From the NCBI RefSeq assembly GCF_014205275.1, contig NZ_JACHND010000001.1:5890001-5954000 (forward strand): a DNA stretch of 64,000 nucleotides, written 5' to 3'. The stretch's first letter is position 1; every line of letters starts with the position of its first letter. The notes under the pieces are model-generated. The model had not been told where the DNA came from. It did not search any database and was given only the letters and a program-made list of their open reading frames with translations. This DNA is from Sphaerisporangium siamense (GTDB taxonomy: Bacteria > Actinomycetota > Actinomycetes > Streptosporangiales > Streptosporangiaceae). This document shows, in pieces, positions 60,971 through 63,099 of the stretch. A program made the position numbers and the translations under genes.

Positions 60971-61960
60971 GTGGACGTGCCCGCCCTACGCGACCCCGGC
61001 GCCGAGGCGATGGTGCGCGAGGGCGACCCCTACCACGCCTACCTGGACTCCCTCAGCGGCGCCGAGTCCCGCCGCACGATGCGCGGCTGCCTGGACCGCG
61101 TCGCCCGCCTCATCACCGGCGACGAGGCCGCGACCGGCGCCGGCCAGCCGTGGCACCTGCTGCGCTACGAGCACACCGTGCGCGTCCGGGCGATCCTCTC
61201 CGAGCAGGGCTGGTCCCCCGCCTACGTCAACAAGCACCTGGTCGCGCTGCGCCGGGTCATGCGCGAGGCCTGGCGCCTGGGCCGGATGACCGCCGAGGAC
61301 TACCACCGCGCCGCCGACCTGCCCACCCTGCGCCACACCCGCCTGCCCGCCGGGCAGCACGTCCCCGCCGAGGTCGCCGGCGCCGTCCTGGCCGCCTGCG
61401 ACGGGGACGACTCCCCCGCCGGGGCCCGCGACGGCGCCCTGCTGGCGGTGCTGTACTCCACCGGCTGCCGCCGCGCCGAGATCGCCGCGCTCTCCCTGGA
61501 CGACTACGACCCCGCCGCCCGCTCCCTGCGCGTGCGCGGCAAACGCGACAAGGAGCGCCTGGTCTACCTCACCCGCGAGGCCGTGGCCCGCCTCGAGTGC
61601 TGGCTGGCGGTGCGGGGGACGGCGCCGGGCGCGCTGTTCACGCCGGTCAACAAGGCCGGGCGGCTGCGCGCCCCCGGCGGGCGGCCCGCCCCGATGAGCG
61701 GGCAGGCCATCGCCGGCATCCTGGCCAGGCGGCTCGCCGCCGCCGGAGCGGCCAAGCGCACCCCCCACGACTTCCGCCGCACCTTCATCGGCGAGCTGCT
61801 GGACGCCGGGGTGGACCTGGCCACCGCGCAGGCCCTGGTCGGGCACGCCTCCCCCGTCACCACCGCCCGCTACGACCGCCGCCCGGAGAACCGCCGCAGA
61901 GACGCCGTCGACCGCCTGGCGATGCCCACCGCCCGTCCCCTCAGGCCCGGCGGCCCCTGA
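60971..61960 (+). CDS. Tyrosine recombinase (site-specific integrase)
   Basis: A 329-residue recombinase with every catalytic residue: Arg167 in STGCRRAEIAALSLDDYD, a Lys in RGKRDKERLVYL, His266 and Arg269 in PHDFRRTF, His292 in LVGHAS, and the nucleophile Tyr301 in TTARYDRR. The N-terminal 110 residues form the core-binding domain (HLLRYEHTVRVRAILSEQGW, SPAYVNKHLVALRRVMREAW). It is XerC/phage-integrase-like. GTG 60971 follows GATCGAGG. It is transcribed away from repeat S3 and the PKS island. It probably acts on the S-type repeats; that link is inferred. Confidence 0.93.
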   Translation: MDVPALRDPGAEAMVREGDPYHAYLDSLSGAESRRTMRGCLDRVARLITGDEAATGAGQPWHLLRYEHTVRVRAILSEQGWSPAYVNKHLVALRRVMREAWRLGRMTAEDYHRAADLPTLRHTRLPAGQHVPAEVAGAVLAACDGDDSPAGARDGALLAVLYSTGCRRAEIAALSLDDYDPAARSLRVRGKRDKERLVYLTREAVARLECWLAVRGTAPGALFTPVNKAGRLRAPGGRPAPMSGQAIAGILARRLAAAGAAKRTPHDFRRTFIGELLDAGVDLATAQALVGHASPVTTARYDRRPENRRRDAVDRLAMPTARPLRPGGP

Positions 61961-62627: not shown

Positions 62628-62787
62628 GCCCACATTTTCCCGAGAATCTCGGCGCACATGGCGATTGTGCCGTGGACGAGCGGGTTTGCCATGGCGTCCC
62701 CCGGTGTGAACCCGGTGGACATCCGGGGATCGCCGTTCCGGGCGGCAGGGGTGGAGGGACGACCCCCGCGGGTGGGCTACAGTCGGT

Positions 62788-62943
62788 AGTAGCCGATGTG
62801 GTTTGTGTCCCCCGGGCCGCAATTACCGCCTTCACGGAATACCGTTCGGCTGGAGCCGTGTTGTGCCTCTCGCCGAGGAGGCGACCGCCACATCGGCCAC
62901 AACGAAGAGCCCCCGCGGGCGCGTCCCGCGGGGGCTCTTCGTT
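62788..62943 (+). ncRNA. Candidate structured small RNA
   Basis: A roughly 155-nt stretch without coding character. GCCGATGTGG (62792-62801) pairs perfectly with CCACATCGGC (62888-62897), closing an 86-nt interior. Inside are ACGG-aata-CCGT (62834-62845) and GCCTC/GAGGC (62865-62882). A 19-bp terminator follows directly. TACAGT at 62779-62784 would be a suitable -10 element. It matches no riboswitch or RNA family I can name. It could be an independent sRNA or a leader of the acyltransferase gene. Confidence 0.5.
62901..62943 (+). terminator. 19-bp stem terminator
   Basis: AACGAAGAGCCCCCGCGGG (62901-62919) and its perfect reverse complement (62925-62943) flank a 5-base loop CGCGT. It ends the candidate RNA and lies 157 bp before the acyltransferase start. 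Confidence 0.85.
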
Positions 62944-63099
62944 TCCCGCCACGCCGTCCCTCACCCCGGTCATAGGGGCGGCCTTCGGTCGTCTCACCAC
63001 GCGTCGTGACAGTTTGTGCACACCCGTAACACTCCGTAACGCATCGTTGCCCTGGCGAGCCGTATGGTGGTCATTGCCGTTCGCACACCGGGAGAGCAC

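Follow-up and report, generated by a model that had tools for sequence, protein, structure and literature searches.

Architecture of the locus

The window, a stretch of 64,000 nucleotides of the Sphaerisporangium siamense genome, contains near its right-hand end an RNA element that has genes for a tyrosine recombinase and a GNAT protein, together with plsC, as its neighbours. The recombinase gene is XerC-like and lies at 60971–61960; relatives of it occur upstream of the RNA at loci L013, L016, L018 and L154. The element itself is a closed multi-stem RNA fold at 62789–62900, followed directly by a perfect 19-bp hairpin, and is composed of the following parts.

62753–62757, + strand: −35-like element GGAGG, 18 nucleotides before 62776; mostly GGAA[CT] in relatives and degenerate here
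62776–62783, + strand: −10-like element GCT (62776–62778; GTT in relatives), overlapping TACAGT at 62778–62783
62789–62900, + strand: conserved RNA core; the models R1, R2 and R3 match 62781–62906
62792–62801, + strand: closing stem P1, 5′ strand, pairing with 62888–62897
62809–62816, + strand: L2, a conserved C-rich element, CCCCCGGG, with a possible short stem P2 at its flanks
62828–62837, + strand: P3/P4 stem, 5′ strand, pairing with 62856–62866, with mismatches at 62831–62832
62842–62853, + strand: P5, a short stem-loop in which 62842–62844 pairs with 62851–62853
62856–62866, + strand: P3/P4 stem, 3′ strand, with U62864 bulged
62870–62884, + strand: P6 hairpin, UCGCC-GAGGA-GGCGA, nearly invariant
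62888–62897, + strand: closing stem P1, 3′ strand, pairing with 62792–62801
62901–62943, + strand: 19-bp terminator-like hairpin with a weak U-tract, 62901–62919 pairing with 62925–62943 around the loop CGCGT

The original prediction, made from the letters of the window alone, had described a 10-bp long-range stem, two inner hairpins and a 19-bp terminator in a region without coding signal. P1 does comprise 10 base pairs in the window copy (nine were checked as pairs and the tenth, 62801 with 62888, was read off separately), and the terminal hairpin does have 19 perfect pairs, although its U-tract is weak because the next bases are TCCCGCC. Helices are likewise found where the inner hairpins had been placed, but evolution has conserved other hairpins than those in the single-sequence minimum-energy fold, and that fold was rejected as the true structure.

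When the terminal hairpin is included, the segment from 62783 to 62943 folds at −94.2 kcal/mol (z −6.45), with none of 200 shuffles as good. The core alone, 62789–62900, has a single-sequence minimum of −51.3 kcal/mol (z −2.95; 2 of 200 shuffles as good), which becomes −45.7 kcal/mol when the helices supported by covariation are imposed. Because folding of the core is only moderate without the terminal hairpin, the case for the element rests on comparison and covariation rather than on energy. Downstream hairpins are on average stronger than in shuffles: the best local one past the core has a mean of −33.4 kcal/mol in 210 copies and −25.3 in shuffles (−28.4 and −24.7 for 51 copies of the compact form). 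Shuffled GC-rich DNA nevertheless often forms strong hairpins as well, for hairpins at or below −20 kcal/mol follow 207 of the 210 real cores and 190 of the 210 shuffled ones (46 and 41 of 51 for the compact copies).

No sign of a conserved reading frame was seen across 211 cores, in line with the predicted absence of a coding signal, and a peptide gene is thereby weakly ruled out. The lengths of these cores are spread over all residues modulo 3 (75, 81 and 55 copies), and stop codons interrupt the three frames in 136, 67 and 70 of them, respectively. Open reading frames of at least 20 amino acids are present in 76 of the 211 cores and in 54 of 211 in one shuffle, and this test alone is therefore not decisive.

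Compensatory change, distribution and novelty of the family

A1, a plain alignment of 54 sequences, was the source of the helices P1, P3/P4, P5 and P6; its covariation score (pair counts) is 0.187, compared with 0.098 after shuffling and at most 0.073 when the pairing partners are slid. Three other alignments, A2, A4 (107 sequences aligned to a model, Streptomyces included) and A7 (the compact form), were fitted to a model containing the tested structure and are thus biased towards it. Their scores are 0.177 for A2 (0.092 shuffled), 0.374 for A4 (0.126 shuffled, at most 0.094 with partners slid) and 0.393 for A7 (0.140 shuffled), and in each case none of 500 shuffles reached the score of the real alignment. 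In A4, 93.1% of cells are paired and 434 are double-change cells, compared with 133 in shuffles; in A7, 99.2% are paired. Compensatory changes in relatives, whose absence would have refuted the original prediction, are therefore abundant in all four alignments. When no structure is supplied, RNAalifold predicts P1, P4, P5 and P6 from A1 but not the lower P3 pairs, 10 of the 24 pairs showing double changes, and a mutual-information ranking of A4 places 12 pairs of the structure within its top 20.

It is informative to consider the individual helices. In A4, P1 has double changes at all nine modelled pairs (pair 19–171, for example, is GC in 39 sequences, CG in 36 and UA in 29), the P4 pair 67–131 is CG in 55, GC in 35, UA in 7 and AU in 5, and the P5 pair 74–126 is CG in 67 and UA in 39, so that 39 of 106 cells show a double change from CG to UA. 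P5 is swapped for a longer variable hairpin in some relatives, and P3 positions 59–60 with 92–93 (A1 numbering) are unpaired in most sequences. P6 is nearly invariant and hence conserved in sequence rather than covarying; its loop is a GNRA-type tetraloop (GAGA, GUGA or GCGA) in many relatives. The C-rich L2 element is also conserved in sequence rather than covarying. Across 105 of the 107 A4 sequences, its C run is on average 0.71 unpaired with the other helices imposed and 0.43 without, and its GGG 0.21 and 0.11. Pairing in P2 has only weak support, with two competing registers, and RNAalifold favours a third pairing, GGC with GCC.

When 60 relatives were searched at the DNA level, 40 had a match, each of the ten congeners at least two, and a pattern scan of named genomes returned at least 118 matching stretches. 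Among the pattern matches listed, the genus names point mainly to Streptosporangiales, Micromonosporaceae and Pseudonocardiales, together with one Blastococcus; one listed match lies in a MAG that bears the label Acidimicrobiales, which is not an order of the class Actinomycetes. Models were built from 54 short-form sequences (R1), from 107 sequences (R2) and from 25 compact sequences only (R3). R1 finds two copies in the source genome, one in the window at 62781–62906 (120.1 bits) and a paralogue at G000:C1:4376451-4376574 (118.1 bits), and it matches 9 of 197 genomes of a phylum sample, all in the class Actinomycetes, and 45 of 81 Streptomyces genomes. R2 matches 82 of 296 genomes of the class and 119 of 121 genomes of the order Streptosporangiales, the two misses sharing family and genus. 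Weaker R2 matches revealed a compact form of about 100 nucleotides, the long form having about 125–165 by the models, in which the P3–P5 arm is a simple GCCGC-loop-GCGGC hairpin. R3, the model of this form, matches 195 of the 296 class genomes and 15 of the 197 phylum-sample genomes, again all in the class; either form, by R2 or R3, is present in 212 of the 296 (tables counted by hand). No RNA match was obtained in the 179 of the 197 phylum-sample genomes that lie outside the class (17 listed singly as of the same phylum, the other 162 not; 18 are the source's own or of the same class). Furthermore, R3 finds both the window copy (38.2 bits, E 4e-7) and the paralogue (45 bits) among 16 sources, and the compact and long forms are therefore linked independently of the long-form models; in its whole-genome scans of the 296 and 197 genomes, however, the window copy went undetected in both and the paralogue in one. 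Model searches over loci covered 80, 100 or 100 of the collected loci, the E-values are rough and, because searches of more than 40 genomes used stricter filters, the absences are upper bounds. Neighbouring repeated copies, two or three together, were seen at L088, L105, L156, L159 and L272, in Thermobifida fusca, Planosporangium flavigriseum, two Lentzea species and one further genome.

These sequence comparisons leave little room for doubt, even without expression data, that a class-wide structured RNA family absent from Rfam 15 exists. Nothing in Rfam 15 matches the window at the gathering threshold; the best sub-threshold matches, sodF_sRNA and His_leader, both align best over the terminal hairpin. 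In 20 loci with compact or related copies the single match up to an E-value of 1, Ms_IGR-5, lies elsewhere in L268, and the compact loci have no match at the RNA itself. Membership of a known Rfam 15 family was accordingly rejected. The expectation of a probable new structured RNA, belonging to no family recognised by eye, is borne out to this extent. The combination of a C-rich element with wide actinobacterial spread is shared with 6C RNA. The latter consists of two hairpins bearing runs of six C, and neither the window nor any of the 20 loci matched the 6C model in cmscan.

The family appears to be undescribed in the open-licence texts searched, in which serial sRNA lists held in supplements are not covered; hence its novelty is claimed only with respect to Rfam 15 and the texts examined, and lists of Streptomyces sRNAs or motifs may hold copies under serial names. 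Among these texts a sequence string of the family had no match, and none that deals with a SigR- or SigH-dependent structured RNA was found. A motif survey of 50 genomes that included Streptomyces avermitilis reports many unnamed candidates and 10 sRNA candidates (PMC11109978); no such motif is named in the portion of it that was available, and the family could therefore be among the unnamed candidates. Likewise, a term search of the accessible part of PMC8632094 gave no match, and in S. clavuligerus 272 putative sRNAs have been placed in conserved intergenic regions, according to the excerpted text of PMC11678152. Ms1 RNA (scr3559) is also a structured RNA spread across actinobacteria, but it was traced by synteny with HAD-hydrolase and oxidoreductase genes (PMC9130861, as far as the available extract goes), and this is unmet by the present RNA, which has a HAD-type gene upstream, by eye, in 4 of 40 Streptomyces loci.

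Promoter signals and a possible mode of action

Upstream of 181 of 211 distinct copies, nearly all of the long form, lies the motif GGAA[CT]-N15–19-GTT, with a spacer of 18 in 175; dinucleotide shuffles of the 211 upstream regions contain it 2.2 times on average and 5 times at most, and it is missing from 30 copies. This count was drawn from A2, A3 and A4, excluded copies with less than 60 nucleotides upstream or with an identical core, and did not take in L002–L011, which were included in the Sphaerisporangium comparison. Among 51 compact copies, 24 have the form with N17–19 (0.12 in shuffles) and 27 are without it, and TANNNT occurs near the start in 33 (5.3 in shuffles). The SigR consensus is given as GGAAT-N18–19-GTT, and the genes of the SigR/SigH regulon have the promoter form GGAA[CT]-N18-GTT in common with the present RNA, although those named in the part of the source that was available are protein genes (PMC9205884), whereas this is an RNA gene. 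The family thus has a SigR-type promoter, but the window copy does not, its promoter region reading GGAGG-N18-GCT. The −10-like TACAGT singled out by the original prediction is literally present at 62778–62783; many relatives, however, read GTTA there, as part of the GGAA[CT]-N18-GTT stress-sigma promoter.

Other ECF factors read similar promoters, and the particular sigma factor is therefore only inferred. Nonetheless, and in the absence of expression data, an ECF sigma factor of the SigR, SigH or SigE type very probably controls most long-form copies, from which it would follow that the RNA is produced in response to thiol-oxidative or envelope stress. Stress-sigma control of the window copy is doubtful.

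On balance we lean, with some reserve, towards a free-standing non-coding RNA gene that is driven by a stress sigma factor and acts in trans, and whose copy in the window is losing or changing its promoter. The window copy is one of two in its genome, and most copies of the family have promoter-like and terminator-like signals of their own; action in trans is an inference, although a probable one. An ECF sigma factor would transcribe most copies under the stresses named above. In what we regard as the likeliest mechanism, the P1-closed fold would present the conserved C-rich L2 element (CCCC(C)GGG), which may then base-pair with the G-rich ribosome-binding regions of target mRNAs; the P6 hairpin and the P3–P5 arm would serve as a scaffold, either stabilising or protein-binding. 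That C-rich pairing is the working part seems to us a little short of an even chance, and no target has been predicted. Several observations count against this explanation: P6 and the flanks of P5 are closer to invariant than a simple pairing RNA would need, the C run of L2 is only 0.43 unpaired in unconstrained folding, and the consensus promoter is missing from the window copy, from 6 of 11 plsC-linked Sphaerisporangium copies and from the 30 of 211 and 27 of 51 compact copies counted above. The frequency of strong hairpins in shuffles and the copies that R3 missed also weigh against it.

Compatible with the trans-acting RNA gene, and not exclusive of it, is the possibility that the window copy, as one of two paralogues, is in the course of having its promoter lost or re-wired, with function in this genome resting mainly on the other copy; we entertain this seriously without being persuaded of it. 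In Sphaerisporangium, GGAA[CT]-N18-GTT is kept in 5 of 11 plsC-linked copies and in 12 of 12 second copies, and GGAGG with GCT is common to the window copy, L002 and L003. However, the RNA core is not decaying, in that R1 scores it at 120.1 bits against 118.1 for the paralogue (R2 gives 111.0 against 116.0), and TACAGT could act as a housekeeping −10 element. The promoter is lost or altered in 6 of the 11 plsC-linked copies (window 62753–62778; L002–L011), a possible re-wiring of one paralogue.

It is also worth considering a protein-binding regulatory RNA, in which the conserved fold and not an antisense seed does the work, for example as a ligand of RNA polymerase in the manner of 6S or Ms1 RNA, or of a protein of translation or RNA decay. 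We rather doubt this account but cannot set it aside, and whether the RNA works by antisense pairing through its C-rich element or by binding a protein is undecided. There are 41 invariant columns in the 54-sequence alignment, many of them in helices and helix flanks, and the RNA is spread across the whole class, both of which would suit a protein ligand. So would the position of the Streptomyces compact copies L329 and L331–L333 between a malic enzyme gene and a helicase gene resembling HelD/HelR, the RNA-polymerase recycling motors, although this best NCBIfam similarity (families tested on L332) is far below the cut-off. The fold speaks against a 6S-like reading, as it is a multi-stem junction and not the long rod with a central bubble that 6S RNA forms. 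The nearest lead in the literature is scr0792 of Streptomyces coelicolor, an unexplained, polymerase-bound RNA of about 85 nucleotides between SCO0791 and SCO0792 (PMC11077062). It is likewise a small Streptomyces RNA, but its reported length is shorter than that of the present RNA, the study gives scr3559 and scr0792 as the two polymerase-associated RNAs of S. coelicolor, and nothing in the present data shows scr0792 to be the present RNA; identity with the family is neither shown nor excluded.

Returning to the stress-driven, trans-acting RNA gene, we suggest tentatively that it is a core regulatory RNA of the class Actinomycetes and the RNA arm of a SigR/SigH-type stress response, with a reach within the class like that of 6S RNA elsewhere, and that it has remained unregistered because its length and neighbours change between families. 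If this is true, the thiol-oxidative stress sigma response gains a post-transcriptional arm. Actinomycetes are the source of many antibiotics and count major pathogens among them, yet few of the RNAs conserved in these bacteria are known. A direct test is possible in model strains, because the compact form is present in the Streptomyces genomes sampled, many of which have the long form too.

Mobility and neighbouring genes

That the RNA is a mobile or plasmid-maintenance element spreading on its own is improbable. One Streptomyces genome has up to 7 matches to R1, a stretch similar to a Streptomyces long-form copy is held by 52 of 72,556 plasmid records, and 9 of the 11 plasmid loci inspected have within 4 kb a gene for a nuclease, DndB, a transposase, a recombinase or a toxin, all as might be expected of such an element. 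Set against this are its presence in all but two of the 121 order genomes, mostly in 1–3 copies, the mostly single compact match per genome across the class, and the absence of any match in phage records or, for the exact pattern, in viral contigs (0). A phage origin was rejected on the same absences. Among the 30 plasmid matches listed, 28 have no annotated feature beneath them and the other 2 are in unannotated records. The Streptomyces plasmid loci L335–L345 hold long-form copies that are not annotated, with an annotated restriction endonuclease gene about 500–610 nucleotides downstream in 3 of 11, dndB in one and a sigma-factor gene nearby in two.

A cis-acting leader or attenuator of plsC is very improbable, for although the plsC frame (first ATG at 63064) begins on the same strand 120 nucleotides past the terminal hairpin, neighbours change between lineages, and the constant association with one downstream gene that a leader or riboswitch would need is not met. 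Indeed, no gene family accompanies the RNA throughout. In neighbour counts over 189 matched copies, which leave out L002–L011, the largest cluster, plsC-like acyltransferases, accounts for 19 copies, with the gene downstream in 12 and upstream in 7, and the paralogue in the same genome, L031, is not among them. The original placement "before plsC" is thus true of the window copy but incidental. The second cluster, penicillin-binding-protein-like by eye, accompanies 18 of the 189 copies. The compact copies L329 and L331–L333 carry GGAAT-N17–19-GTT, and long-form copies lie elsewhere in these Streptomyces genomes; three other compact copies, L311, L313 and L330, lie near phosphate-uptake genes (PstB-like and DUF47/Pit-like, by eye).
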